Of a stretch of DNA of 24,964 nt, positions 3,464 to 21,752 are shown one piece after another (position 1 is the stretch's first letter; each line of letters opens with the position of its first letter). Made by a program: the position numbers and the translations under genes. Location of the stretch: positions 1-24,964 of the IMG/VR virus record IMGVR_UViG_3300046674_000403. One strand, written 5' to 3'. The stretch is from a virus. Under the pieces are notes generated by a model. The model ran no database searches. It worked only from the letters and a program-made list of their open reading frames with translations, and was not told where the DNA came from.

Positions 3464-4828
3464 TTAGCGGGCCGCGAGCTCGACGAACGGCGACAGGGTG
3501 GAGCCGCCGTTCTTCGGGGTGATCGCGGACTTGAGCCAGGGGCGGCCGTCGACGCGCTGGATGATGCGGAACGTCGTCTTGTCCGAGCCGAAGTTGAAGT
3601 CGGTGGAGCTGTCGGCGGTCATGGTCTGCCGGTCGCCGACCAGGTAGTACGACAGGTCCACGAAGGAGATGTCGCCGCGGGTGCCGAGCGCGCCGGCCTT
3701 CTCGGTGACGATGAGCGGCCGGCCGAAGATGGTCATCGGGGCGGGGCCGGCCGCGTTGGTGACCATGATCGGGCCGCCGCCGGTGCCCACGGCGAGGGCC
3801 ATGGTGAATAGCTCCGGCAGGGCGTCCGGGGAGCACAGCCACACCGCCCGGGAGAGGGAGCTGGGCAGCATCCGGGCGTACATCTTGACGATGTTCTCGT
3901 AGACGATGGTGCTCGCTACCTGGCCGGACTCCGCCGCGACGGCGATGGCCGCCGTGTTGGGTGCGCCCATGAAGCCGAGCGGCTCGCCGACGCCGGTGCC
4001 GGACATGAACGCGGCGTCCTCGGAGAACGCGAGGGCCTTCGGCCACAGGGACTCGATGAGCGCGCTGAAGCTGACGATCGAGTCCTGCAGCAGCTCGTTG
4101 GGCACGGCGCTGAGGCCGGTGAGCTTCTTGGCGTCGAGGACCGCGCGGCCGAACTTCGGGTTGGAGTCGGTGAGGGCGGCGCCCTCCTCGCCCCAGTAGG
4201 CGACCATGCCGCCGAAGACGGAGCCCTGGTTGGTCGTCGAGTCGATCATCGGGAACGGGACGCGTGCGCTGTCCATCGGGACGACGGTGGCCAGCGGCCG
4301 CACGACCGACTCCTCCAAGGCGATCTGCAGGAGCTGCGAGCGCAGCGTCTCGGGGACCAGGAACCCGCCGTCGGACGGGGACACGGAGCCAGCAGCGTTG
4401 CGCAGGGCGTCGAGCTTCTCGCCGAGGTTCGTCGCCGGGTTCTTGTGCCAGATGGTGCGCACGTAGTCGATGCCGTCGGTGAAGTGCTGGTCCAGGACCG
4501 CGCCGGCAGCGGACGCGTTGTGCGCGGTGCCCTGCCGGTGGCTGGTCAGCATGTTGGCGTTGCGGGCCGGGGCCTGCGGGTCGAGGTTCGGCCGCTTGAT
4601 GGCGGTGTCCTGGCCGTTGTCGCGCAGCATGTTGGCGAGCTGACGCTGGGTCTCCTCGGCGACCGCGCGGTTCAGCTCGGTGCCGTCGCCCTGCTGCTGC
4701 CGGGCGTAGGCGTCGATGAAGCTGGTGAGGGCGTCCTTGTCGGCGAGGACCGGGGCGAGGCGGCCGGGGTCGGCCATCATCTCGGCGAGCTCGGCGGAGT
4801 TCTTCGGGACGGGGATGGCGGTGGTCAC
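3464..4828 (-). CDS. major capsid protein, HK97 fold (454 aa)
   Basis: The start is a GTG that overlaps the protease stop by four bases (GTGA). Residues 1 to about 110 are a charged helical region (SAELAEMMADPGRLAPVLAD, ELNRAVAEETQRQLANML), the expected delta/scaffold domain removed on maturation. The shell domain then shows classic HK97 features: SDGGFLVPETLRSQLLQIAL, VRPLATVVPMDSARVPFP, EGAALTDSNPKFGRAVLDAK, LLQDSIVSFSALIESLW, FMSGTGVGEPLGFMGAP, and the late segment MTIFGRPLIVTEKAGALGT. The mature protein would build the icosahedral head. It follows the portal and prohead protease in canonical order. Confidence 0.92.
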   Translation of the reverse strand: MTTAIPVPKNSAELAEMMADPGRLAPVLADKDALTSFIDAYARQQQGDGTELNRAVAEETQRQLANMLRDNGQDTAIKRPNLDPQAPARNANMLTSHRQGTAHNASAAGAVLDQHFTDGIDYVRTIWHKNPATNLGEKLDALRNAAGSVSPSDGGFLVPETLRSQLLQIALEESVVRPLATVVPMDSARVPFPMIDSTTNQGSVFGGMVAYWGEEGAALTDSNPKFGRAVLDAKKLTGLSAVPNELLQDSIVSFSALIESLWPKALAFSEDAAFMSGTGVGEPLGFMGAPNTAAIAVAAESGQVASTIVYENIVKMYARMLPSSLSRAVWLCSPDALPELFTMALAVGTGGGPIMVTNAAGPAPMTIFGRPLIVTEKAGALGTRGDISFVDLSYYLVGDRQTMTADSSTDFNFGSDKTTFRIIQRVDGRPWLKSAITPKNGGSTLSPFVELAAR

Positions 4829-5727
4829 AGGAGTGCCTCCCTGAGGCGTGCGAACGCGTCCTCAGTGGACGGCGCGGGGACAGTGAGATGTGCGGTGATG
4901 CTGGCCCAGTCGTCGGCCGCTTCGGCCGGCTCGGGGTCGTCTGCGGAGGCGACCGGGCTGGGCTCGGCTACCTCAGGTACTTCTGGCGTGGTCGGCTCTT
5001 CGGCTGCGGGCTCGGCAGCGGGTGCCTCGGCCGGGCGCTCGACTACGGCGGCCACAGCCACCGGCGCGGGTGCTTGGTCGCGACCGGCGTAGGTGAAGGC
5101 GCTCAGATCCCAGGAGTTTTCGAGCGGATTGTCATCCGCCGAAGTCCGGGTTGATGCGATCTCGTCGGCGAGGCCGGCTTCGACAGCCTCCGCTGCCGTG
5201 TACCAGGTCTCATCGGTCATCCGTGTCCGCCACTCGGCGACGTCGCCGCCGGCTCGTTCGGCGTAGACCGCGGCGATGTTGTCGGACTGCCGGTCGAGGA
5301 GCTCCGCCGTCGAGCGCATGTCTGCGGCGTTGCCGATGCACAGCCCGGATCCGTCGTGGATCATCAGCTGGGAGTGCGGGGCCATGACGATCCGGTCGCC
5401 GGCCATCGCGATGACGGACGCGATGCTCGCCGCGAGGGAGTCGACGTAGGTCGTCACCGTCGCGGGGTGTGAGCGCAGGGCGTTCATGATGGCGATGCCG
5501 TCAAAGATCTCGCCGCCGGGCGAGTTGATGTGCAGGTCGATGGCGGTCGCGTCGAGGCTTGACAGCTCGCGGATGAAGTCGGAGGCGGTGATGCCCCAGT
5601 AGCCGATCTCGTCGTAGACGTGGACCTGCGCCGGAGCGTCGCCCAGGGCGTTGGTGATCCGGTACCAGTCGGTGCGGCCCTGCCGCAGCTGTGCTCGGGG
5701 CCGGGCGGTCCGTAGCCTGCCAGGCAT
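4825..5727 (-). CDS. prohead (capsid maturation) protease, ClpP/S14-like (300 aa)
   Basis: The start is the ATG giving MPGRLRTARPRAQLRQGRTD, with GAGGAGG four bases before it and 17 bases after the portal stop. The ClpP-like serine protease domain spans about residues 30-195. It has HINSPGGEIFDGIAI (oxyanion loop, 66-80), the nucleophile in SLAASIASVIAMAGD (Ser101), the histidine in LMIHDGSG (His124), and a candidate Asp172 in MTDETWYTAAEAVEAGLADE. The enzyme would cleave the delta domain of the capsid protein and then itself inside the prohead. After residue 215 comes an acidic Pro/Glu/Ala-rich tail ending in a short helix (TEDAFARLREALL), possibly a scaffold-like part. Confidence 0.92.
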   Translation of the reverse strand: MPGRLRTARPRAQLRQGRTDWYRITNALGDAPAQVHVYDEIGYWGITASDFIRELSSLDATAIDLHINSPGGEIFDGIAIMNALRSHPATVTTYVDSLAASIASVIAMAGDRIVMAPHSQLMIHDGSGLCIGNAADMRSTAELLDRQSDNIAAVYAERAGGDVAEWRTRMTDETWYTAAEAVEAGLADEIASTRTSADDNPLENSWDLSAFTYAGRDQAPAPVAVAAVVERPAEAPAAEPAAEEPTTPEVPEVAEPSPVASADDPEPAEAADDWASITAHLTVPAPSTEDAFARLREALL

Positions 5728-5744: not shown

Positions 5745-7808
5745 CTATGCCGACGGCCAGGACGCGACCACCGTGCCGCGGCAGCGGATACCGCCGTCGC
5801 AGTTGATGTAACCGCCCGTGCCGTACGCCGCCTCGGCATCCTCGATGCTGGGGAAGGCAGTTCCGTCGATCTCGCCGCACGGCCCGCACTGGTTGCCGTC
5901 GTGGACCTCGGTCGCAGTGATGACGACGTCTGCCGGTCCAGCTCGGACGACGGCGAGGCGCCCGGTGTTCTGTGCGCGGTGCAGTGCGCCACCGAGCTGG
6001 TCACGCCGGAACCAGCCCTTGACGGCCCGTAGCGCATCACCCACAGCGGAGGCGACGGCCCGGCCCGTGGCGCCCGGCCGGGCGAGACGCAGTGCCTCCC
6101 TGCCGGCGGCGCCAGCCAGCCCAGAGGCCAGCAGAGATGCGATGGCCGGGGCCAGGTCGGCGAGTTCACTGCCGAAAGCGGCCCGCAAGGGGCTTCCGCC
6201 GTTGTGCTTGGCGAAGGGGCTGTCGACGGTGGGCAGCTCGATCCTGACGCCCTGGTCGGCAGCCTCGCGCACCATCCGCGCCGCAGCCTGCCCGGCCATC
6301 ATCGCGAGGGAGCGTTGCAGGGCGACGGCTGCGTCGTCCCACGACACGGCGAGAGCAGCGAGGGCTACGGTGTCGCCGTTGTCGACGGCGGTCTCGATCT
6401 GTCGTTCCAGGTCGTCGATCCATCCGGATTCGATGCCGTCCCACGTGGCGGTGAGGCTGTCGAGTGCGGCGTTGAAGTCCGCTCGGACGTCCTCCAGGTC
6501 GGTGTCGGCCTGGTCGCCGAGCTTGAGGCGCGTGCCGCTGGTGCGGGGCGTTTGCCGCGGCAGGGCGGCAGCCAGTCGGCGGGTGAGATGCGCGGTGGGA
6601 GGGGGCGGGGCGGAGTCCGGGGTGCCGCGCCAGCGCATCGGCGGGAGGCCCACGGTGTGCAGTACGTCATCCGGCTCCCAGCCGGCGGCGGCGAGTGCGG
6701 CGGCGGCGTTGCTCTTGGCTGTCAGCTCGGCGTTCTCGGCCTCCTCGTCCTCGGGGACTGGGCTGGAGTAGTCAAACTCCAGGTCGGCTGCGGCCGGCCC
6801 GAACAGCGGCAGCAGGTCGTGGTTCAACGCCTGCTTGATGCGCTCGAGGCGCGGCACGATCAGCCAGCGTGCGAACACCACCTCGCCGGCCTCGGCGTTC
6901 GCCCTGTTGACGTCGTCGACGGAGCCGAGGAGGGGCTTAGGGAAGCCGAACGCCTCGCGGATCAACTCACGGGACTGGTTGCGGAGCTCAGCGAACTGCA
7001 TGTCCCGCTGGGAGTACTTCCGGTCGACCCACTCGCCCTGCTCGAGGATGGCGACGCGGTGGGCGTTGGCGACGCCGCGGTGCTGCTCGTTCCAGCGGTA
7101 CCGCATCTCGTCGAACTCGGGGTCGGAGAGGCGCTTGTCGACGCGGATGATGCCGCCGGGCTCCGCGCTGTTGAGGAAGAAGTTGCGGTTCCACTCAGCG
7201 CTGTACTTCGTGGCGTCGAGATCGGTGAGGACGGACTGCACCGGGCCCATGCCGCGGTACGGATCCAGCGGGTTGGGGGTCCGCAGGAAGATGACCTCGT
7301 CAAGGGCGAGGGGTACCTTCTCGCCGTCGGGGCTGGTGTAGATGTACCCGGCGAGGTAGTTCGTGACGGACGGAACGGGTGCCATCCGGTCCGGCCGGAC
7401 GGGCCACAGCTCCAGCGGGATCGTGGAGCGCGGGTTCCGGGCGATCACCCACCATGCCTCGCCGGTGAGGTCGTGGTGCTGCTGGAACGACTCGACGAAC
7501 TCCTGCTGCGGCATGAACGGGTTGGGCTTGTTCCACAGGTCGAGGGCGGCGTGTCGGGTCACCTCGACCCGGTCCTCCTCGAGGCCGGACGGCGCCTTGC
7601 GGTAGAGCTTCCACTGCTGCTGGGCGGTGGCGTTGGATGTGCGGTTGACGATGGCGAAGAGCGTGCCCACGGCGCCCATCGCCCGCATCTGCGCGGTCGA
7701 GTTACTGTGCTGGCCCCACGGAAGCGTCACGCTGCGGGTCGGCGCGAAGGGGACGGGGGCGCGGCCGAGCAGGGAGCGGAGGAACGACGCCACGGCCACA
7801 CCCTTCAT
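5745..7808 (-). CDS. portal protein fused to a MuF-like C-terminal domain (687 aa)
   Basis: The N-terminal ~400 residues are an HK97-type portal: VNRTSNATAQQQWKLYR, LWNKPNPFMPQQEFVESFQQ, HHDLTGEAWWVIARN, PLELWPVRPDRM, LRTPNPLDPYRGMGPVQSVL, and REAFGFPKPLLGSVDDVNRA near residue 310. A Pro/Ala-rich linker follows. The rest is helical and ends in a MuF/head-morphogenesis-type segment with VHDGNQCGPCGEIDGTAF and a final NCDGGIRCRG. The start chosen is the ATG that forms an ATGA overlap with the upstream membrane gene; an in-frame GTG lies six codons earlier. The portal forms the dodecameric DNA gate; the MuF part is usually a separate minor capsid protein that may enter the head. Confidence 0.9.
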   Translation of the reverse strand: MKGVAVASFLRSLLGRAPVPFAPTRSVTLPWGQHSNSTAQMRAMGAVGTLFAIVNRTSNATAQQQWKLYRKAPSGLEEDRVEVTRHAALDLWNKPNPFMPQQEFVESFQQHHDLTGEAWWVIARNPRSTIPLELWPVRPDRMAPVPSVTNYLAGYIYTSPDGEKVPLALDEVIFLRTPNPLDPYRGMGPVQSVLTDLDATKYSAEWNRNFFLNSAEPGGIIRVDKRLSDPEFDEMRYRWNEQHRGVANAHRVAILEQGEWVDRKYSQRDMQFAELRNQSRELIREAFGFPKPLLGSVDDVNRANAEAGEVVFARWLIVPRLERIKQALNHDLLPLFGPAAADLEFDYSSPVPEDEEAENAELTAKSNAAAALAAAGWEPDDVLHTVGLPPMRWRGTPDSAPPPPTAHLTRRLAAALPRQTPRTSGTRLKLGDQADTDLEDVRADFNAALDSLTATWDGIESGWIDDLERQIETAVDNGDTVALAALAVSWDDAAVALQRSLAMMAGQAAARMVREAADQGVRIELPTVDSPFAKHNGGSPLRAAFGSELADLAPAIASLLASGLAGAAGREALRLARPGATGRAVASAVGDALRAVKGWFRRDQLGGALHRAQNTGRLAVVRAGPADVVITATEVHDGNQCGPCGEIDGTAFPSIEDAEAAYGTGGYINCDGGIRCRGTVVASWPSA

Positions 7809-7990
7809 CGTCTGTCTGTACGCCACATCTCAGCGGCCAGGCAGGACAGGCCGGCGACGATCCAGCCGAGCGGGTGGTAGATCGACCAGACCCCGTAGGC
7901 GATGGAGGTGAGGCCGGTGACGACGATGAGCACTGGCAGCGCGGCGTTCAGCCGGGGCAGGGCCGCCGCCAGGCGCTGGTGCCAGGTCAC
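7805..7990 (-). CDS. small two-helix membrane protein between terminase and portal (61 aa)
   Basis: The GTG start overlaps the large-terminase stop (GTGA) and its TGA overlaps the portal ATG (ATGA), so it is fully coupled into the packaging operon. After the amphipathic start MTWHQRLAAALPRLNA there are two hydrophobic segments, PVLIVVTGLTSIAYGVW and PLGWIVAGLSCLAAEMW, and then a charged end RTDRR. This predicts a helical hairpin in the membrane. I do not recognise a family and give no function. Confidence 0.75.
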   Translation of the reverse strand: MTWHQRLAAALPRLNAALPVLIVVTGLTSIAYGVWSIYHPLGWIVAGLSCLAAEMWRTDRR

Positions 7991-9372
7991 ATCCACCTCA
8001 GCCGGGGCCGGGCGCCGAGGTCTTGCTCGGCGACGATGTACCGTCCGGCGTCCATGCCGTGGTCGTCCTGCTTCACTGGGGCCTCCTTGGGGGTCTTGCC
8101 GGGCTGAGCGTCCCAGACGTACCCGACGATCTCCTCGGCCGTGCAGCACGGCTTCATGGCTTCCTGCAGCTCCAAGTCCCGTTCGACGAGGGCATCGCGC
8201 AGCAGGTAGAGGCGTGGCTTGCCGTCGCCGGCCGGGCGCAGGCGGGACTGGAACGCCTGGATGCCGTCCTTGACGGTCTTGTGGGCGGCGCTGGTCGACA
8301 TGCCGAGGTGGCGCTCGAGGGTGGCGCGGTCCTCGGCGTCGTGGTCGCAGATGACGGCGCGGGGTTGCGGCTCTGTCCATTCGAGGTGGCAGGCGTCGCA
8401 GTCGTGGCAGTCGTGGTTGCTGGCCTTGGAGTTGCAGCAGTCGACGCACCGTCGGACGAGGCGGAGGATGTGCCGGGCGTGGTCCTCGACCAGGGTCTTC
8501 GTCTTGTAGATCTCCCGGTAGAGGTAGAGCCGGCCGTCGGGGTCCTCGGCCCAGCACTGCAGGACGAAGGGGTTGGTGAACCCGAAGTCAACGACCCACC
8601 AGCGGGTCCAGCTGTCGGGGACGGTGAACGGGGCGAGAAGGTGGACGGCTGGATCCCAGTCCTCGTAGATGAGGCCTTCGGCGGCGACCCAATGGCCGCC
8701 GCGGAGCCGCTGTTTGCGGACGCCGGTGAGGGCGTCGAGCTTCGAGATGTAGGCGCGGCCGCGCACGGTGAGGGTGCCGTCGTCGGCGAAGAGGACGGGG
8801 TTGTCCTCGTGCTTGCAGTGGATCATCTGGGTGGCGCCAGTGTCGCAGCGTTGCTTCAGCCAGTGGGTGGGGACGTCGGGGTTGCAGTCGGCGATGAGCT
8901 GCTGGAACGAGATGACGCCGTTGCGGAGGCGGGTGGTGATGTTCTCCCAGTCGGTGGTGGTGAGTTCGGTTGCTTCCTGTGCGTAGACGACGTCGTACTC
9001 GGACGACATGATGCGGGTGGCCTTGTCCATGCCGCCGACGACGATCACGGATCCGTTGTCGTACTTGTACTGCGGGGACTCCTGTGGGCTGCCGCCGTAG
9101 AAGCGGACGAGGCCCTGCTCCAATGCCTCCTTGACGACGTGCTCGCGCCAGGTGACGAGGGCGGTGGAGCCGAGGGAGGCGAGGGTCTTGCGGACGATGA
9201 GGCCGCGCATGCCGGGGTTGAGGAGCGCCATCATGTGGAGCTTCTCCAGGCAGCCGCGGCTCTTGCCGGTGCCGGCCGGCCCGGAGAGCAGCACTTCGGG
9301 GGCGCGGCAGGCGAACACCTCGGCGGCGGCACCGCGCGGGTGGTAGCGGCGCACCAGCGGCGCGGTGGTCAC
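7987..9372 (-). CDS. terL: terminase large subunit (461 aa)
   Basis: The start is a GTG overlapping the upstream stop by four bases (GTGA), giving MTTAPLVRRYHPRGAAAEVF. The ATPase domain shows Walker A VLLSGPAGTGKSRG (about residues 27-40) and Walker B YDVVYAQEATE (about 126-136). The RNase H-like nuclease domain shows WWVVDFGFTNPFVLQC (Asp262), VICDHDAEDR (Asp343/345) and DDHGMDAGRYIV (Asp436/437 and 441). The enzyme pumps and cuts concatemeric DNA at the portal. Between the first and second nuclease motifs is a Cys/His cluster at residues 309-328 (C..CC, then C..C..CH) that could bind zinc. The small terminase gene lies two genes upstream. Confidence 0.95.
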   Translation of the reverse strand: MTTAPLVRRYHPRGAAAEVFACRAPEVLLSGPAGTGKSRGCLEKLHMMALLNPGMRGLIVRKTLASLGSTALVTWREHVVKEALEQGLVRFYGGSPQESPQYKYDNGSVIVVGGMDKATRIMSSEYDVVYAQEATELTTTDWENITTRLRNGVISFQQLIADCNPDVPTHWLKQRCDTGATQMIHCKHEDNPVLFADDGTLTVRGRAYISKLDALTGVRKQRLRGGHWVAAEGLIYEDWDPAVHLLAPFTVPDSWTRWWVVDFGFTNPFVLQCWAEDPDGRLYLYREIYKTKTLVEDHARHILRLVRRCVDCCNSKASNHDCHDCDACHLEWTEPQPRAVICDHDAEDRATLERHLGMSTSAAHKTVKDGIQAFQSRLRPAGDGKPRLYLLRDALVERDLELQEAMKPCCTAEEIVGYVWDAQPGKTPKEAPVKQDDHGMDAGRYIVAEQDLGARPRLRWM

Positions 9373-9680
9373 GGCTTGCGCAGCCCCGCCCGGAGGGCAG
9401 CGGTCTCGCCCGGGTGCTCGCCGTTGACGCTGAAGCTGATCCCTATGTCGGCGCCCCTGTCTGCGCGTGGGGGGAGGACGAGCGTGCATCCGTCCTCGCC
9501 GATCACGGGCAGCCGTACGACACCGCCCGTGGCCGGCAAGGGTGGAGCGCCCTGGGTGAGGAAGTCGTCGGGGAGCTCGGCCGCTTCGACAAGGTCGCGG
9601 TCCAATGGCCCGCAGCCGTAGTGGCCAGCGCAGGTCATGCCGTCTGCAATCTGCTTGATCAGTTCCTCGCGCGTGGTCAC
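9369..9680 (-). CDS. hypothetical protein between the terminase subunits (103 aa)
   Basis: The protein begins MTTREELIKQIADGMTCAGH with a GTG start that overlaps the small-terminase stop, and it overlaps terL by four bases, so it is a true operon member. It contains GCGPLDRDLVEAAELPDDFL followed by a beta-like region VVRLPVIGEDGCTLVLPP. No known domain is recognisable. The position suggests a packaging accessory, but nothing in the sequence proves it. Confidence 0.65.
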   Translation of the reverse strand: MTTREELIKQIADGMTCAGHYGCGPLDRDLVEAAELPDDFLTQGAPPLPATGGVVRLPVIGEDGCTLVLPPRADRGADIGISFSVNGEHPGETAALRAGLRKP

Positions 9681-10183
9681 TTCAGCGCCTCCGTGTCCAC
9701 GCCGACGACCTCGTAGGTGAGGCCGCCGCTCACGTTCATCTTGGCGGGCTGGTCGAGGCCGAGGAGCTTGCGGCGGGACTCGGAGATCCGCACGAGCCGG
9801 TCGATCGCGGCGAGCACTGGGCCGTCATCCAGCAGCGGTTCGCCGTCGACGACGATCACCTTGCCGTTGGACACGGTGACGTGGTGCCGCTCCAGCACCT
9901 CCATAGCCGCGCGGTGGAGGCGGTCGAGCCGGTCGAGTTCGAAGTGAATGGCGGCGGCGGCCGGCTCGGCGACGACGGCGGCGATGGCACGTTGCACGGC
10001 GTCGTGCGCTGTGTGCAGGTCGCAGCCCAGCTCAGCGGCGATCTGCCGGTAGCTCTTGCCTTCGGAGCGGAGGCGGGCGGCAGCGGCGTCCCGCTCGATG
10101 CCCTCAACGGTGCGGGTCCATTTGCCGTTGGTGCCGCGGGCGGGCTCGATGGGGTCGGCGTGCTGGGTGGTCGGGTCGGTCAT
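9677..10183 (-). CDS. terS: terminase small subunit (168 aa)
   Basis: The ATG has AAGGGGG eight bases upstream. An N-terminal basic segment leads into a helix-turn-helix, RSEGKSYRQIAAELGCDLHT followed by AHDAVQRAI (about residues 38-67), which would recognise the packaging site. A helical oligomerisation region follows (FELDRLDRLHRAAMEVLERH), and the C-terminus has RKLLGLDQPAKMNVSGGLTY, a tail seen in many phage small terminases. It is the first gene of the packaging/head operon and lies just below a perfect hairpin at 10229-10258. Confidence 0.82.
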   Translation of the reverse strand: MTDPTTQHADPIEPARGTNGKWTRTVEGIERDAAAARLRSEGKSYRQIAAELGCDLHTAHDAVQRAIAAVVAEPAAAAIHFELDRLDRLHRAAMEVLERHHVTVSNGKVIVVDGEPLLDDGPVLAAIDRLVRISESRRKLLGLDQPAKMNVSGGLTYEVVGVDTEALK

Positions 10184-11453: not shown

Positions 11454-11469
11454 CTCCCCGATCGGGGAG
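11454..11469. repeat. 16-bp perfect palindrome, candidate operator
   Basis: CTCCCCGATCGGGGAG reads identically on both strands. It lies in the gene-free stretch 11391-11587, upstream of the minus-strand gene starting at 11390 and just before two copies of GGTAGGCGTG (11471-11480 and 11507-11516). As DNA it could be a dimer binding site; as RNA the loop would be too tight unless inner pairs open. No promoter boxes were convincingly placed. Confidence 0.45.
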
Positions 11470-11587: not shown

Positions 11588-12313
11588 TCAGGCAGCGGCA
11601 CTGGCCACCGCCGGGACGGGCGCGGGGTCGGTCTGGGGAAGGGCGGCCAGCAGTACCGCCATGCGGGTGTAGTCGCGGCCCCCCACGGTGAGCTTCTTCT
11701 TCTCCACCACGGGCACCCCGAGGGAGGTCAGATGGTCGCTCAGGTCGGCCACCTCCCAGCCCCCCAGGAGAGAGCGCCTCTCGCCCTCTTCCAGGACCTG
11801 GGAGAGGTGCGCGGCGGTGCCCTGCTTGGTGAGTCCGGCGACGTGCCGGATGAGGGCGTAGAGGGTCGCGGCCAGCGGCGCGTCCTGGATCTCGTCGTCC
11901 TCCTGGCCGTCGACCGCGGAGGCGTCGTCAGGCTTGGCCGGGGAGGACTTCTCGGCGGAGCTGGTGGCTGGTCGTTCCTGACCGGCGACCAGGGCGGCCA
12001 GCACCCACAGGGTGAGGCCGCCGGCGGCTGCGGTGGGCAGCCACTTGCCGACCAGCGGCCACAGCAGGAACAGGACACCGGCGGTGCTTCCGATCCGCTT
12101 GGCCCAGGTGACGAACGGGTGCTCGGCGACGTCGGCCGGGGCCTGTGGTGCTGGGTGGCTGGCGCAGTGCTCGGCGTGCGACGGCTTCTTGTGGTCGGGG
12201 TGCCCGCACGGGTCGGGCTCGGCGACGGTGGAGCGTGCCTTCACGGCCGAAATGATCCGGCGGTTGCCCCGGGCGACCGCCTTCAGGCTGACGCCCTGCA
12301 GCAGCTCTCGCAT
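11588..12313 (-). CDS. membrane protein with C-terminal winged-helix-like domain, plasmid-transfer type (241 aa)
   Basis: The ATG overlaps the upstream stop (TGATG). A basic start (MRELLQGVSLKAVARGNRRI) is followed by a Cys/His motif C-x2-PDH...HAEHC at residues 36-50 that could hold a metal. Two hydrophobic segments lie near residues 75-91 and 94-111, then an acidic linker. The C-terminal domain (about 146-222) has LYALIRHVAGLTKQGTAAHL, WEVADLSDHLTSLGVPV and KKLTVGGRDYTRM, a winged-helix-like pattern. From memory, such domains occur in proteins beside tra/spd genes of Streptomyces plasmids and integrative elements; this is a resemblance, not a proof. It is the last gene of the operon. Confidence 0.6.
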   Translation of the reverse strand: MRELLQGVSLKAVARGNRRIISAVKARSTVAEPDPCGHPDHKKPSHAEHCASHPAPQAPADVAEHPFVTWAKRIGSTAGVLFLLWPLVGKWLPTAAAGGLTLWVLAALVAGQERPATSSAEKSSPAKPDDASAVDGQEDDEIQDAPLAATLYALIRHVAGLTKQGTAAHLSQVLEEGERRSLLGGWEVADLSDHLTSLGVPVVEKKKLTVGGRDYTRMAVLLAALPQTDPAPVPAVASAAA

Positions 12314-12720
12314 CAGGCACCGAACCCGTGCAGCAGGGCCGCCAGGATGGTCGCGGGGATGGCGAGCAGGCCGCCGGCGGTGGAGAGGGCGCCGGGCAGA
12401 GCGACACCCACGATCAGGTCCTTGCCCATGCTGGGCTTGGTGCCGAACCCGATCAGGATCAGGATCAGGGCGACCGCTCCGGCGCCGATCGGGCCGACGG
12501 TGCCGGACTGCGCGTCGAGGGACTGGCTGATGGTGGTGGAGACGGTGCCGATCTGGCTCAGGGCCTGCCCGGCGTTGGCGGCCAGCAGCCCGAGCGCGGC
12601 GCCCCAGTAGATGACGTGGTGGCTCTTGACCGGCTGCAGTTTGCCGCCCCCGCGCTTGTGCAGGGCCAGGGCGATGACGATCAGCAGGATCATGCCGCCG
12701 GACCCGATGGCTCCGAACAT
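12313..12720 (-). CDS. polytopic membrane protein (135 aa)
   Basis: GGGAG lies eight bases before the ATG. About four hydrophobic segments are seen: residues 4-20 (AIGSGGMILLIVIALAL), 37-55 (VIYWGAALGLLAANAGQAL), 74-93 (VGPIGAGAVALILILIGFG) and 101-130. Between the second and third is a polar loop with SQIGTVSTTISQSLDAQSG. The protein is small and Gly/Ala-rich. It sits in a run of membrane-protein genes whose largest member resembles SpdB-like plasmid spread proteins. No family is recognised for this one. Confidence 0.65.
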   Translation of the reverse strand: MFGAIGSGGMILLIVIALALHKRGGGKLQPVKSHHVIYWGAALGLLAANAGQALSQIGTVSTTISQSLDAQSGTVGPIGAGAVALILILIGFGTKPSMGKDLIVGVALPGALSTAGGLLAIPATILAALLHGFGA

Positions 12721-12739
12721 GGTGTGAACTCCCGTGCTG

Positions 12740-13381
12740 TCAGTGGTTGTGGATCAGGTGGCCGGTGGCGGCGAGCAGGGGCGCGAGCTGGCAGACGGCG
12801 GCGAGAGCGGAGCTGACCGGGATGCGGACCAGCACCAGCACGCTGACCCGCCGCAGGCCGCGCACCTGCGAGATCGGAAGCGCCGCGACGCCCCGGATGC
12901 GCATGTCGAGTGCGATGGCTGCGGCGAGCACGCCCACCCCGGGCCAGTAGGGGAGGGAGTCGACCCACTGGACGAGGCCGACCGAGTAGCCGACCGACGC
13001 GGACAGGGCGGTGAGGGTGAGCCAGCGGCGGAAGCGCTTCGCGCGTTCGGCGTGGTGCAGTCTCCACGGCAGGGCTGCCGCGACCTGTGCCCGGCGGCGC
13101 CTGCCGGCGTCTTCGCGGCGGTGGCGCCGGATGCGGGCGTGGGGGTGCTCCCCCGCCCTGGCGTGGGCGTCGTCGTCTTCCTGGCGCTGGCGCCGGTGGC
13201 GTTCGTCTGGGGTTTCGGTGATGGTGCGGCCGAGTTGGTCCATGGCTTCGACGAGGCGCTCTTGGCCGGTCTCGGCGGAGGCGATGCGCTCCGGCGTCCA
13301 GACGTGGGCTGAGGTGTACTCCCACCAGGTCGTGTGGAGGCCGACGGTGGGCGCGTACTTGGGCGGGGGTGGTGTGGTCAT
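12740..13381 (-). CDS. membrane protein with long charged N-terminus (213 aa)
   Basis: The ATG overlaps the stop of the 29-codon gene (ATGA) and has GGAGG five bases upstream. Residues 1-118 are soluble: a start MTTPPPPKYAPTVGLHTTWW, a helix around ETGQERLVEAMDQLGRTI, and then a very basic/acidic stretch of Arg, His, Glu and Asp. Hydrophobic segments follow at about 119-140, 146-168 and 178-207. The layout is a large cytoplasmic domain anchored by three helices. No family is recognised; operon context links it to the SpdB-like gene. Confidence 0.6.
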   Translation of the reverse strand: MTTPPPPKYAPTVGLHTTWWEYTSAHVWTPERIASAETGQERLVEAMDQLGRTITETPDERHRRQRQEDDDAHARAGEHPHARIRRHRREDAGRRRRAQVAAALPWRLHHAERAKRFRRWLTLTALSASVGYSVGLVQWVDSLPYWPGVGVLAAAIALDMRIRGVAALPISQVRGLRRVSVLVLVRIPVSSALAAVCQLAPLLAATGHLIHNH

Positions 13382-13467
13382 CGGGGCCTCCGGGTGAGGA
13401 GGAGCAGGCCGTAGGCGGCGCCGATGGCGTCGATGATGACGAGCACGATGGAGATGGCGTCGGCCAT
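13378..13467 (-). CDS. 29-aa single-helix membrane peptide
   Basis: The frame starts at an ATG with GGAG five bases upstream, one base after the stop of the gene above it, and ends in a TGA that overlaps the next ATG by ATGA. The peptide is MADAISIVLVIIDAIGAAYG followed by LLLLTRRPR: one hydrophobic helix with a basic end. The tight spacing on both sides supports real translation. Function unknown. Confidence 0.6.
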   Translation of the reverse strand: MADAISIVLVIIDAIGAAYGLLLLTRRPR

Positions 13468-13468
13468 G

Positions 13469-13627
13469 TCAGCTCCACTCCTTCGGCGCCAGGCCGCCGG
13501 CCTTGAGCCAGCCGGCCGTGCGGCGGTCGATGCCGCTGATCTCCTTGGCGCGCCGCTTGCGTTCCTTCGCGGTGCGGCCGGTGGGCGGGGCGTCTGTGGC
13601 GCCGGTGAGCTTCGTCCAGATGCCCAT
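13469..13627 (-). CDS. small basic protein (52 aa)
   Basis: The ATG overlaps the stop of the SpdB-like gene by one base. The protein starts MGIWTKLTGATDAPPTGRTA, has a strongly basic helix KERKRRAKEISGIDRRTAGW, and ends LKAGGLAPKEWS. The basic helix could bind nucleic acid or membrane lipid. No family is recognised. Overlap with the upstream gene and a one-base gap to the downstream gene show that it is an operon member. Confidence 0.6.
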   Translation of the reverse strand: MGIWTKLTGATDAPPTGRTAKERKRRAKEISGIDRRTAGWLKAGGLAPKEWS

Positions 13628-14691
13628 CAGCGGGCCGCCTTGCCGAGGATGGCCGCGCGCAGGTCCGTGGCCTCACGGCGGGAGAGGCCGAGCTGGGACT
13701 GCAGGGTCTCGATGGTGACGGGTCGCGCCGGCTTGCCCTTGCGGGCCTCGCGGTCGAGCTTGCGGGCGGCGGCCAGGCGTTGGGCGCCGGTCATCTCCGT
13801 GGGTGGCGTGCTTACCGGCGAGGTGACCACCTCGCGGCGCTGGAACCCGGCCGAGATGGTTGCCGGTGAGCGGTCATGTCGGTGGTCATGTGGCCGGTCA
13901 TCGGGGTGGTCACCCCAGGAGTCCGAGGTGACCGACGAGGTGACCGGTGAGATGACCAGTCCGAGGGCCGCCAACTGGGCTTCGATGTCGTCGTCACTGG
14001 CGTCCGGGGAGAGGGCGCGGGCGTACTCGGCGGCCCGCTCGGCGTCGGTCGGCCTGTCGTCCTCGACGTGCGGGTAGGCGGCGGTGTGCGCGGCGAGCTG
14101 CTGGCGGGAGCGGGCGAGGCGCCGGCGGACGGCGGCGAGCGCGAGTTCCCCGCCGACCTCTGCCATCTCCAGCTCGACCCACTGCTGGGTGTCCGGGTCG
14201 AGGGCCTTGGCGTGGTGCCGCAGGACGAGTACCCACAGGGCCTTGACGCCGACGGAGATGGCGGCGCCGACGATGCCGGCTGCGAGGTGACCGCCGCGGG
14301 CGCCTTCGGTGATGAGCGCGCCAACGGCGATGGCGAGGCCGAGGTAGCCGGCGATCTGCGGACCGGTGGCCTTGTCGGGCTCGTACCGGGCGAGCCATTC
14401 GAGGGCGAGGCAGGTCATCCACAGCAGGTCGAAGGTGGCGGCTCCGCCGTAGGCGATGGCGGGGTGGGCGGCGGTGGTGAGGAGGTGGCCGATGGCGCTG
14501 GTGGACCAGGCGATGCAGCCGGCGCCGACGGTGATGGCCACGCCGGTGACGGCGGTGAGGACGATCTGGTCCCAGTCGCAGGGCGGCCGGGGCTGGTCGA
14601 CGGTAACGGTGCGGGGTGCCAGGTGGGTCTTGCCCTCGCGGGTGACGGGCACCATCTCGGTGCGCTCGACGGTGCGGGTGCGGGGCTTCAT
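13627..14691 (-). CDS. SpdB-like membrane protein of Streptomyces plasmid-spread type (354 aa)
   Basis: The ATG overlaps the upstream TGA (ATGA). The N-terminus (RTRTVERTEMVPVTREGKTH, then P..P.DWD) is followed by four membrane segments near residues 42-64, 78-100, 112-130 and 135-157. Key stretches are AIAYGGAATFDLLWMTCLAL, EWLARYEP and VKALWVLVLRHHAKALDPDT, then a long helix (EVGGELALAAVRRRLARSRQ). The C-terminus has an HTH-like segment (VTIETLQSQLGLSRREATDL). From memory this matches the proteins annotated SpdB or 'protein transporter Sec' in Streptomyces conjugative plasmids, which help plasmids spread between hyphal compartments. No TraB translocase gene is in the window. Confidence 0.65.
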   Translation of the reverse strand: MKPRTRTVERTEMVPVTREGKTHLAPRTVTVDQPRPPCDWDQIVLTAVTGVAITVGAGCIAWSTSAIGHLLTTAAHPAIAYGGAATFDLLWMTCLALEWLARYEPDKATGPQIAGYLGLAIAVGALITEGARGGHLAAGIVGAAISVGVKALWVLVLRHHAKALDPDTQQWVELEMAEVGGELALAAVRRRLARSRQQLAAHTAAYPHVEDDRPTDAERAAEYARALSPDASDDDIEAQLAALGLVISPVTSSVTSDSWGDHPDDRPHDHRHDRSPATISAGFQRREVVTSPVSTPPTEMTGAQRLAAARKLDREARKGKPARPVTIETLQSQLGLSRREATDLRAAILGKAAR

Positions 14692-14831
14692 CGGGTCGCC
14701 CCGGTGGTGCGCGGGGCGGGCTTCGGGCGGCCGACGGTGGCGGGGGTGCGGCGGAGGGTCTTGCCGGGGTCGCGCTGCGGCAGCGGGTCGGGGGCCGAGC
14801 GGGGGCGCGCGCTACTGTTCGTTCGGGTCAT
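14688..14831 (-). CDS. small basic, proline-rich protein (47 aa)
   Basis: The frame starts MTRTNSSARPRSAPDPLPQR and ends RTTGATR in a TGA overlapping the next ATG by four bases (ATGA). It is rich in Arg, Pro and Thr and is probably unstructured. An AGGAG lies 12 bases upstream, rather far for a ribosome binding site. Its exact fit between two operon genes is the main support. It may serve chiefly to couple translation into the SpdB-like gene. Confidence 0.45.
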   Translation of the reverse strand: MTRTNSSARPRSAPDPLPQRDPGKTLRRTPATVGRPKPAPRTTGATR

Positions 14832-14917
14832 GGGAGGGCATATCTCCTGTGGTCAAGGGCCTGGGCTGGGGCTGCGATCCCCGCGCCTGGGCCCGTTCTG
14901 TGTTCGGGTGCTGCTGG

Positions 14918-15094
14918 CTACAGGTGCTCGTCGATGAGGCGGCGGATCACGGCGGCGCGGCTGGTGCCGGCGCCGACGAGCGCGTCGAGCTTGGCGAGCT
15001 GGGGTCCGTAGAGGGTGATGCCGCCGATGACCTTCTTGGTCGGGGGCGTGCGGGAACTGCCGGGCTGGGCCGGCTTGGTGTCGGCTTCATGCAT
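14918..15094 (-). CDS. ribbon-helix-helix regulator, first gene of the membrane operon (58 aa)
   Basis: The chosen start gives MHEADTKPAQPGSS. Earlier in-frame Met codons arise from the TGCATATGCA operator repeats and are unlikely starts. The C-terminal part, KKVIGGITLYGPQLAKLDAL then VGAGTSRAAVIRRLIDEHL, is a CopG/Arc-type RHH domain: a beta strand, then helix, turn SRAAVIR, helix. There is no ribosome binding site; the ATG lies six bases after a TACGTT -10 box, so it is probably translated leaderless. It would bind DNA as a dimer, most likely the three palindromes upstream, and control its own operon. Confidence 0.7.
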   Translation of the reverse strand: MHEADTKPAQPGSSRTPPTKKVIGGITLYGPQLAKLDALVGAGTSRAAVIRRLIDEHL

Positions 15095-15156
15095 ATGCAC
15101 AACGTAGCAGTCGTGCATATGCACAGCAAGAGGCTTCCTCGACGTATGCATATGCA
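15090..15156. promoter_or_regulatory. three TGCATATGCA operators in a divergent control region
   Basis: Exact copies of the palindrome TGCATATGCA lie at 15090-15099, 15114-15123 (here extended to GTGCATATGCAC) and 15147-15156. The first overlaps the ATG of the minus-strand RHH gene. The second and third fall inside the -35/-10 spacers of the two proposed divergent promoters. In a genome of about 70% GC, three copies of a 60% AT palindrome within 67 bases are not expected by chance. The likely ligands are the flanking RHH proteins. Confidence 0.8.
15101..15129 (-). promoter_or_regulatory. proposed promoter of the membrane-protein operon
   Basis: On the minus strand, -35 TTGCTG (15124-15129) and -10 TACGTT (15101-15106) are 17 bases apart. 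The ATG of the RHH gene begins six bases after the -10 box, the spacing expected for transcription starting at the ATG itself. The second operator fills the part of the spacer next to the -35 box, so repressor binding would block RNA polymerase. Confidence 0.6.
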
Positions 15157-15173: not shown

Positions 15174-15368
15174 ATGGTCAGCCGCGCGAAGGACACCCAC
15201 ACCACCAACCGCGTCGTGCGCGTACCCGACGCCGACTGGGATGCCCTCGGCGCGCGGGCCGGCGCCCGGAACCGCGCTCAGGTGATCCGCGACCTTGTCG
15301 CCTGGTACCTGCGGCGCCCTGGGGCGAAGTTGCCAGAGCGCCCGCCGGTGGACACGACGGGCGCCTGA
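15174..15368 (+). CDS. plus-strand ribbon-helix-helix protein (64 aa)
   Basis: The protein begins MVSRAKDTHTTNRVVRVPDA and continues DWDALGARAGARNRAQVIRD then LVAWYLRRPG. The strand TNRVVRVP followed by two helices with the turn ARNRAQVIR fits a CopG/Arc-type RHH fold. It is one of only two minus-to-plus exceptions in the window. It is divergent from the other RHH gene and shares the operator region. No ribosome binding site is seen, consistent with a leaderless transcript starting at its ATG. It may be the partner repressor or anti-repressor of the minus-strand RHH protein. Confidence 0.7.
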   Translation: MVSRAKDTHTTNRVVRVPDADWDALGARAGARNRAQVIRDLVAWYLRRPGAKLPERPPVDTTGA

Positions 15369-20100: not shown

Positions 20101-20283
20101 TCAGCGGTCCGGGGTGGCGCCCGAGCACTTCGGGCCGAGGTCGCGGCCGTCGCGGGTGCGACGCCACCCGGCGGGCCGGTTGTGCTTGCGGACGTCGCGG
20201 TGGGTGTAGGCCTCGAACGGCGTGCCGGCTTCCTCCTCGCCGCACTCGTCGCAGCGAATGACGAGGTACGCGGCGGCGCTCAC
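20101..20283 (-). CDS. small zinc-binding protein candidate (60 aa)
   Basis: The GTG start overlaps the methyltransferase stop by four bases (GTGA). It contains LVIRCDECGEEEAGTPFEAY, then VRKHNRPAGWRR and LGPKCSG. The CDEC pair plus a later Cys, the His and the GW(R) motif resemble the small rubredoxin-like proteins common in Streptomyces and their phages. Coupling suggests co-expression with the methyltransferase. Confidence 0.6.
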   Translation of the reverse strand: MSAAAYLVIRCDECGEEEAGTPFEAYTHRDVRKHNRPAGWRRTRDGRDLGPKCSGATPDR

Positions 20284-21752
20284 GCGGCAACCCCGGCGGG
20301 CTGCCGGCCGGCGGGCAGCTCGATCGGCATGCCGGTGAGGGCCTCGACGGCCATGGCGACCAGGTCGCGGGCGGCGTTCGGGGTGACGGCGTTGCCGAGC
20401 ATCTTCACGCGGGTCCGCTTGTCGGCCGGGGTGAGGATGTACCCCTTCGGGAAGTGCATCGCTGCCTGGTACTCGTGCGGCTCCAACATCCGGTACCGGC
20501 AGTCCTCCACGGACCGCACCCGGCCGCCGTAGATCGCCGCGTGGCCCTCGACGGTCGTGACGGTGCCGAGGGGAGCAGCGGCCGGTTGCGCGATGCTGCT
20601 GCTGTAGTACGGCAGGACCATGTCCGGGGCCGACACCAGGAAGTGATGGTTCCCGCCGGCGGTGACGGTCGACAGCGGCTCGGTGATGGCCCGGTGGGAG
20701 GAGCCGCCGCCGCGCAACTCCACCATGTAGGGAGGGAGCGCGACGCCTGTCTCGTTGCGGGTGGTGACGGTCCGCAGCGGCTCCAGGATGTCCATCGCAG
20801 GCTTCTCACGGCCCTCGTTCGGGACGAGGAACGGCCGGGAGAACTTCTCGTACCCGGCGTTGATGCGGCGCAGGGTGTTGGCTGCGAGCTCGTCCTTGGT
20901 GCCCTTGCGGTCGCCGATGGTGCGGGCGGGCAGGTCCCAGTCGATGATCTCGGAGGCACTGCGGACGGCCGGAGTGACGACCGCGTTGCGGCAGGCGACC
21001 TGCGGGCAGCGCCACACGTACTGGCCGGTCTTGCCGTACCGGCCCCAGGGGCTGGCCGGCGTGCACATCTTTGTGCTCTTCCACGCCTGGACCGCCCGGA
21101 TGGGGCCGTGCATGGGGCAGAGCGCGGTGGGCCGCAGCCACTTGTCGAAGTCGGGGGCGTGCTCGACCTGCTCGGGGAGCCAGAAGATGTCGTACTTGCG
21201 GTCCCTGGACTGGGCGGCTCCGTCGCCGAGCATGGAGGCGAACATGCTGTTCAGGTAGACGGCGCGGTGCTGGTAGCCGAGGCCGTGCTTCATGGTGTGC
21301 AGCCACGACTCGTAGATCGCGCCGGGGCGGGACTTGGGTCCCCACCAGCGGGAGTCGACGACGTTCTCGACGATGACGAGGCGGTAGGCGTGCTCTTCGC
21401 AGAAACGAGGGACGTCCCACATGGTGGCGCGGGAGCGGATCTCCGCCTCGTTGGCGCCGTCGGGGGCGAACAGGCCGTCGTTCCACTCGCCGTGGTCGCG
21501 CTTCTTGCCCTTCGCCACGGAGTGGTTGGTGCACTCGGGGGAGGCCCACAGGATGTCGGTGCGGGGGTAGCGGCCGGGGACGACCTGGGAGATGTCGGCG
21601 CAGTCGTGGCGGGCGTCGGGGTGGTTGACCTGGTGGGTGTCGATGGCATGCCGGGAGTGGTTGGCGGCCATGGCGACCTGGACGCCGGGGATCTGGATCG
21701 CCCCGGTGGAGGAGCCGCCGGCGCCGCAGAAGAGGTCAGTCAGGGTGATCAC
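20280..21752 (-). CDS. DNA (cytosine-5) methyltransferase (490 aa)
   Basis: The GTG start has GGAGG six bases upstream. Motif I is TLTDLFCGAGGSSTG (residues 3-17). Motif IV is LWASPECTNHSVAKGKKRD with the catalytic Cys, and motif VI is VIVENV. Motif VIII is AAQSRDRKYDIFW, and motif X is LGNAVTPNAARDLV. The target recognition part has ALCPMHGP, YVWRCPQVACRNAV and other Cys, possibly a zinc ribbon. Later come RTIGDRKGTKDEL and a VELRGGGSSHRAITEPLSTV unit. It would methylate cytosine in a specific site of phage or host DNA. No restriction gene is next to it, so it is an orphan enzyme, probably for protection against host restriction or for regulation. Confidence 0.92.
   Translation of the reverse strand: MITLTDLFCGAGGSSTGAIQIPGVQVAMAANHSRHAIDTHQVNHPDARHDCADISQVVPGRYPRTDILWASPECTNHSVAKGKKRDHGEWNDGLFAPDGANEAEIRSRATMWDVPRFCEEHAYRLVIVENVVDSRWWGPKSRPGAIYESWLHTMKHGLGYQHRAVYLNSMFASMLGDGAAQSRDRKYDIFWLPEQVEHAPDFDKWLRPTALCPMHGPIRAVQAWKSTKMCTPASPWGRYGKTGQYVWRCPQVACRNAVVTPAVRSASEIIDWDLPARTIGDRKGTKDELAANTLRRINAGYEKFSRPFLVPNEGREKPAMDILEPLRTVTTRNETGVALPPYMVELRGGGSSHRAITEPLSTVTAGGNHHFLVSAPDMVLPYYSSSIAQPAAAPLGTVTTVEGHAAIYGGRVRSVEDCRYRMLEPHEYQAAMHFPKGYILTPADKRTRVKMLGNAVTPNAARDLVAMAVEALTGMPIELPAGRQPAGVAA

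Follow-up and report, generated by a model that had tools for sequence, protein, structure and literature searches.

Spd proteins are required for the transfer of double-stranded DNA within the mycelium (PMC12857230). Among them, SpdB2 of pSVH1 is an oligomeric integral membrane protein that binds double-stranded DNA and contacts TraB (PMC4170104). On plasmids, spdB adjoins spdA and the FtsK-like traB, whereas the phage relative described here, protein A, has no FtsK neighbour and is accompanied by three other proteins, B, C and D. While Spd proteins are known as a kind, the parts of this phage gene set are known as unnamed families: the phage members fall into PHROGs 35187 and 29416 (A), 15316 (B), 16379 and 38677 (C) and 5650 (D), whose function is listed as unknown and whose linkage into one module is unstated. 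Judged from homology and gene order, the set is a member of a widespread module of Streptomyces mobile elements, in which an SpdB-family A (or a DUF2637 or other protein with 3-4 transmembrane (TM) helices in its place) is combined with B, C and D, the last being a winged-helix protein anchored in the membrane.

The window, that is the whole stretch of DNA analysed here, is the complete IMG/VR record IMGVR_UViG_3300046674_000403, a linear fragment of 24,964 bases with a G+C content of about 71%, related most closely to phages and prophages of Streptomyces. A gene caller using codon statistics learnt from the window itself returned, on the minus strand from 11588 to 15118, the same eight packed co-directional genes that a previous sequence-only reading had proposed (Table 1), and all eight score as coding by codon usage. 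That reading had the genes mostly joined by overlaps, which holds for four of the seven junctions (4, 1, 4 and 1 bases), while the other three are gaps of 86, 1 and 19 bases. Its count of five membrane proteins was reproduced, with helices in A, the 29-aa peptide, B, C and D, as was the placement of the operon between early and late genes, the flanks being methyltransferase, HTH and sigma-like genes versus the TerS-like gene, TerL, portal, protease and capsid. The operon is real, and stands above chance because the order A-C-D recurs in 21 viral contigs.

Table 1. Features of the window, ordered by position
Feature	Positions	Strand	Remarks
Capsid	3464-4828	minus	head/packaging block
Protease	4825-5727	minus	head/packaging block
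Portal	5745-7808	minus	head/packaging block
TerL	7987-9372	minus	head/packaging block
TerS-like gene	9677-10183	minus	phrog_645, labelled 'Rnase E'
Palindrome CTCCCCGATCGGGGAG	11454-11469		perfect, 16 nt; after the last operon gene; without T run
D	11588-12313	minus	241 aa; TM segment and predicted C-terminal winged helix (residues 145-221); iterated HMM and AF2
C	12313-12720	minus	135 aa; of the type II family (134-157 aa), small and polytopic in the membrane; ten relatives at other loci align with it
B	12740-13381	minus	213 aa; N-terminal half charged, C-terminal TM helices
29-aa single-TM peptide	13378-13467	minus	76% identical in L003
52-aa basic protein	13469-13627	minus	conserved in L002/L003; present in L026
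A	13627-14691	minus	354 aa; SpdB-like 4-TM protein; N-terminal beta hairpin, long helix, C-terminal HTH-like helices
47-aa basic protein	14688-14831	minus	4-base overlap with A; 76-78% identical in L002/L003
RHH regulator, first operon gene	14918-15118	minus	gene call; weak RHH_1 match, E 0.075; 96-97% identical in L002/L003
Three TGCATATGCA palindromes	15090-15156		at 15090, 15114 and 15147; between the two divergent RHH genes; from the sequence
Arc-like ribbon-helix-helix (RHH) regulator, divergent	15174-15368	plus	64 aa; phrog_6506 Arc-like repressor, E 1.1e-07; 91-95% identical in L002/L003
Block of 87% DNA identity with L024/L025	13375-15406		blastn; both RHH genes, A, small genes
DNA methyltransferase	20280-21752		right of the operon, along with small regulator-like genes

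The resemblance of the 354-aa protein to SpdB, suggested from the sequence, is borne out by two profile methods. Using hhalign, the A profile aligned with the single pIJ101 SpdB at 92.8% and with five plasmid SpdB proteins at 95.6% and 93.4% (E-values of 4e-7 to 1e-8 over all three comparisons), while the negative controls failed, with at most 7.6% for A against the B or C profiles and 1.2% against reversed SpdB. An iterated HMM search from A, run on 2,186 proteins and an equal number of reversed decoys, reached pIJ101 SpdB at E 0.005 in the first round and all five plasmid SpdBs in the second (E 7.6e-14 for pIJ101 SpdB to 3.4e-11), with no decoy. By these profile comparisons, A belongs with the plasmid SpdB family. 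None of the four proteins A-D of the window had a usable match in Pfam, NCBIfam or PADLOC; in PHROGs, A matched phrog_35187 (E 4.4e-61) and also phrog_29416. Comparison of A with two relatives indicated purifying selection (dN/dS about 0.34 and 0.48).

A shares with pIJ101 SpdB and the SpdBs of four other plasmids a 4-TM-type core, the D..W / K.LW signature, the long helix behind the membrane part and an HTH-like C-terminal tail; the N-terminal beta hairpin distinguishes A from the plasmid proteins. The AlphaFold2 (AF2) model of A, of moderate confidence (mean pLDDT 72), comprises this hairpin, four membrane helices within residues 39-160, the long helix and C-terminal helices at 302-318, 327-334 and 338-348. 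In the model, A thus has the SpdB-type layout of an integral membrane core with a C-terminus of DNA-binding type, similar to that of SpdB2 (PMC4170104). Searches of solved structures with A or D, by sequence and by fold, returned no match at E 1e-3. Since A has no FtsK-type partner, we file it as an SpdB-related protein of a different module and not as a plasmid spread system.

The last gene had been credited with a winged-helix-like domain, and AF2 indeed predicts a confident winged helix in D (H-E-H-H-E-E, core pLDDT above 90). An HMM seeded from other phages and iterated recovers the D of the window at 2.8e-39. Weak winged-helix structure hits of D, to PadR and to TcpK of the pCW3 relaxosome, did not reach E 1e-3 and were set aside. 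Proteins in the C slot form two families, type I and type II, between which profile comparison detected no kinship (2.5%); the type II model, built from the C of the window and ten relatives, matches genes in the C slot of other loci, for example that of an S. anulatus plasmid at E 2.5e-25. The C-terminal region of B recurs in L026, TurkishDelight gp98 and the record pSITFR-21c, and many relatives carry small 2-TM proteins at the position of the 29-aa peptide.

In an alignment-based scan, A was found in 24 viral contigs, two of which end right behind it, leaving 22 IMG/VR relatives with readable downstream sequence. A is followed by C and then D in 21 of these 22, the exception being phage SF3 (L040), which has A alone; L024/L025 are the same contigs as L002/L003 and L047 is the same locus as L020, so that the independent lineages are somewhat fewer. 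B is present in most of the 21 contigs and is diverse. The module usually lies just upstream of TerS/TerL. In L024/L025, the half that contains A is 87% identical to the window at the DNA level, and B, C and D are of other families (C is of type I there and of type II in the window); the module is therefore mosaic, its halves meeting just ahead of B. TurkishDelight gp97-gp100 have all four parts in the same order as the window, as do OnionKnight gp57-gp60, except that in the latter a DUF2637 protein (gp57) occupies the A position and the last gene product has 128 aa and no winged helix. Both sets are annotated merely as membrane or hypothetical proteins.

Proteins with DUF2637 (PF10935) resemble A in their 3-4 TM helices, their C-terminal tail and their slot before B-C-D. 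Several prophage or element loci with D but without an A match carry another 3-4-TM protein before B or C. In three of seven such loci tested, this protein exceeded the PF10935 cut-off of 22.8 bits (L093, 41.5; L095, 52.8; L096, 31.2), and in others it is a 450-530-aa membrane protein without family. The sequence link between A and DUF2637 is weak (hhalign 10.6%; L096 at E 1.4e-4 in the iterated HMM search): the A of the window does not match PF10935, and the best value among members of its family is E 0.82. The DUF2637-type proteins of phiSASD1, Dubu and mu1/6 have no recognised B-C-D neighbours, which, together with the lone A of SF3, means that the full complex is not always needed. As a separate observation, phrog_733, phiSASD1 gp15 (L112) and Dubu gp38 (L114) are DUF2637-type 3-4-TM proteins labelled 'excisionase' in PHROGs and RefSeq, which looks like a propagated misannotation.

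The FtsK_SpoIIIE/TraB motor (PF01580) was detected in none of 25 phage-type records, the window fragment included. TraB, an origin and parA had been pointed out as genes to look for in the rest of the element; no TraB or FtsK was found in any phage record searched, and the 25-kb fragment showed neither parA nor an origin of plasmid type. A search for tandem repeats as TraB-type binding sites gave nothing convincing. By contrast with the phage loci, relatives of A in plasmids and in AICE-like and T4SS-like ICE loci adjoin an FtsK-type or similar ATPase and are without B-C-D. In gene order, FtsK and B-C-D as partners look mutually exclusive in our sample, where the FtsK scores beside the plasmid and ICE relatives are partly just below the cut-off. 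Clusters on Streptomyces chromosomes (L068-L072 and L074) combine an RRQRL-type gene, an A relative, an FtsK-like ATPase, NlpC/P60 and SLT lysozyme with two membrane proteins, one of 91 aa (2 TM) and one of 421 aa (6 TM); each looks like a T4SS-type integrative element containing an SpdB relative.

B-C-D together with an SpdB-like or DUF2637 protein was also found in three elements lacking both phage genes and FtsK. On contig G339:C129 (L115), 11.2 kb and of rolling-circle type, B, C, D and an SpdB-like protein accompany a Rep_1 replication protein, a MobC-like gene and a GntR gene. The S. anulatus plasmid CP108727.1 (L123), a circular record in which a 14.1-kb unit apparently occurs twice, head to tail, encodes a relaxase, a MobC-like protein, GntR, B, the type II C mentioned above, a D-like protein (hhalign 94.8%) and an SpdB-like protein whose tail matches pIJ101 SpdB (97.4% over 57 columns); FtsK was not found on either. 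The third, G068:C1:4579830-4594111 (L093, L101, L102), is a 14.2-kb element bounded by att repeats, perfect 64-bp direct copies of which the left one lies in a tRNA-Ser (TGA) gene. Besides D, C, B and a DUF2637 protein, it encodes an integrase, Xis, a DnaB/DUF3987 protein and GntR. It lacks FtsK, none of its genes was recognisable as a phage structural gene, and we read it either as a phage satellite or as an integrative element devoid of TraB. These three copies are the strongest hints, from gene content, that the module serves mobile DNA generally and not virion production, although their carriers could themselves be phage satellites or hitchhikers.

The two divergent RHH genes enclose three TGCATATGCA palindromes, against 0.003 expected from base composition, and the related phages L024, L025 and L026 each have three copies between the same two genes. 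The repeats are probable operators of both genes, to which the RHH proteins would bind. The first codons of the 77-aa RHH ORF are TGCATATGCA palindromes, so the start given for it is probably placed too far upstream; 15118 or 15091, each lying behind operator copies, is the likely true start. The promoter and double-hairpin terminator that the sequence-only reading had assigned to the operon were not recovered: site scans returned no sigma-70-like and no terminator-like site, and the 201 nt of the supposed double hairpin fold no better than many shuffled versions (z = -1.29; 17 of 200 shuffles equally good). The palindrome CTCCCCGATCGGGGAG is a possible terminator.

Across 199 Streptomyces genomes, A occurs in 34 and D in 48; the module is therefore common and no curiosity of this contig. 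Among 50,697 deposited phage records searched by tblastn, the A queries matched only SF3 and TurkishDelight, the DUF2637 query matched OnionKnight, Dubu, phiSASD1 and mu1/6, all of them Streptomyces phages, and the D query matched none. No phage of a non-Streptomyces host was retrieved from these records with the A, D and DUF2637 queries, tblastn being a blunt tool whose absences are indicative only. An integrase exceeds the cut-off in 11 of the 25 phage-type records and a serine recombinase is present in two others, several records being fragments; no integrase was found within the 25-kb fragment of the window. TurkishDelight is temperate, with integrase, Xis, repressor and Cro. From their gene content, the carriers appear largely temperate. 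The circular 103-kb record pSITFR-21c (L090, NZ_CP134608), which has major capsid, minor head, amidase and recombination genes, is likely a phage-plasmid filed as a non-mobilizable plasmid.

The sequence-only reading had seen a phage or phage-plasmid carrying a spread or cell-envelope module. Part of this stands, as the gene set also occurs on real plasmids and an integrative element; the set is, however, routine in temperate Streptomyces phages and not a stray piece of plasmid. The same reading had opposed to its idea an operon standard in lytic phages with no plasmid relatives: the operon is standard in (mostly temperate) phages, yet plasmid relatives exist.

Our working interpretation, held tentatively and with slightly less than even confidence, is that A-B-C-D assemble in the membrane, where they anchor phage DNA and perhaps pass it from one hyphal compartment to another. 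Binding of this DNA by A and D would take place on the cytoplasmic side, and the two would join B and C in a complex at hyphal membranes or cross-walls. The complex would tether the phage genome and aid its passage into, or sharing with, neighbouring compartments, as Spd proteins do for plasmids, and the timing of the module would be controlled by the two RHH proteins through the TGCATATGCA sites. Actual pumping of DNA would call for a translocase of the host, because the phage records have no FtsK motor of their own. We infer complex formation, DNA binding, location, regulation and the role in transfer or spread alike. The spread interpretation is supported because A joins SpdB and intermediates of A adjoin FtsK/TraB-like ATPases on plasmids and ICEs, and because the queries match Streptomyces phages only, D is a winged helix by model and the carriers are largely temperate. 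It is weakened because there is no motor, SF3 has A alone, the A-DUF2637 link is weak and no solved structure matches A or D. On the non-phage elements, spread or maintenance would be the natural role, because B-C-D occur there without phage structural genes and without FtsK. A bolder version, in which A-B-C-D are a motorless machine for DNA transfer or spread that temperate phages have in common with small plasmids bearing a relaxase and with a minimal integrative element, we regard as doubtful.

The two membrane proteins with predicted C-terminal HTH or winged-helix domains would suit a membrane anchor acting within one compartment, where A and D keep the phage's own DNA in place while it is replicated, segregated or packaged and nothing passes. 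The usual position of the module just upstream of TerS/TerL fits such an anchor, as does the reported stabilisation of plasmid SLP2 by spdB2, as quoted in a passage of PMC4170104. Anchoring should nevertheless be useful in any host, whereas the module was confined to Streptomyces phages in the searches made, and its relatives are spread genes; we consider this explanation rather unlikely. Superinfection exclusion or envelope modification by a membrane complex expressed from the prophage, with the variable B-C-D as specificities, would account for the joining of near-identical A halves (87% DNA identity) to unrelated B-C-D families in three phages, for the separate regulators and membrane location, and for a module common in prophages and rare in deposited phages. 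Winged-helix and HTH domains are unexpected in exclusion proteins, however, the PADLOC models returned no known defence family (one stray hit, E 0.042) and the set is also found on relaxase plasmids without phage genes, all of which makes this role improbable. A row of small membrane proteins ahead of late genes could suggest an auxiliary lysis or holin-type module, a highly improbable role that we reject, since the module neither contains nor adjoins an endolysin or holin in TurkishDelight (where both lie at 33-34 kb, far from gp97-gp100), has DNA-binding domains and occurs on plasmids without lysis genes.

A literature search in which subscription journals were thinly covered returned no paper describing the module in phages, and the text of the Samy prophage paper makes no mention of Spd or DUF2637 genes. 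In the papers searched, we found no description of an SpdB-family protein coupled to B-C-D in a module that recurs among temperate phages, nor of this module on plasmids that have a relaxase but no TraB or on a small TraB-less integrative element.

At stake is the way in which phages deal with hosts whose compartments are connected. The module, which about one sixth to one quarter of the sampled Streptomyces species carry and which has been labelled unknown until now, is related to plasmid spread genes and is a concrete gene set for asking whether phages spread within the mycelium without lysis. One interchangeable membrane apparatus would link Streptomyces phages, conjugative elements and small plasmids. 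If motorless transfer were true, a phage genome would pass between compartments and colonise the mycelium without lysis, giving the phage a second, conjugation-like mode of propagation.
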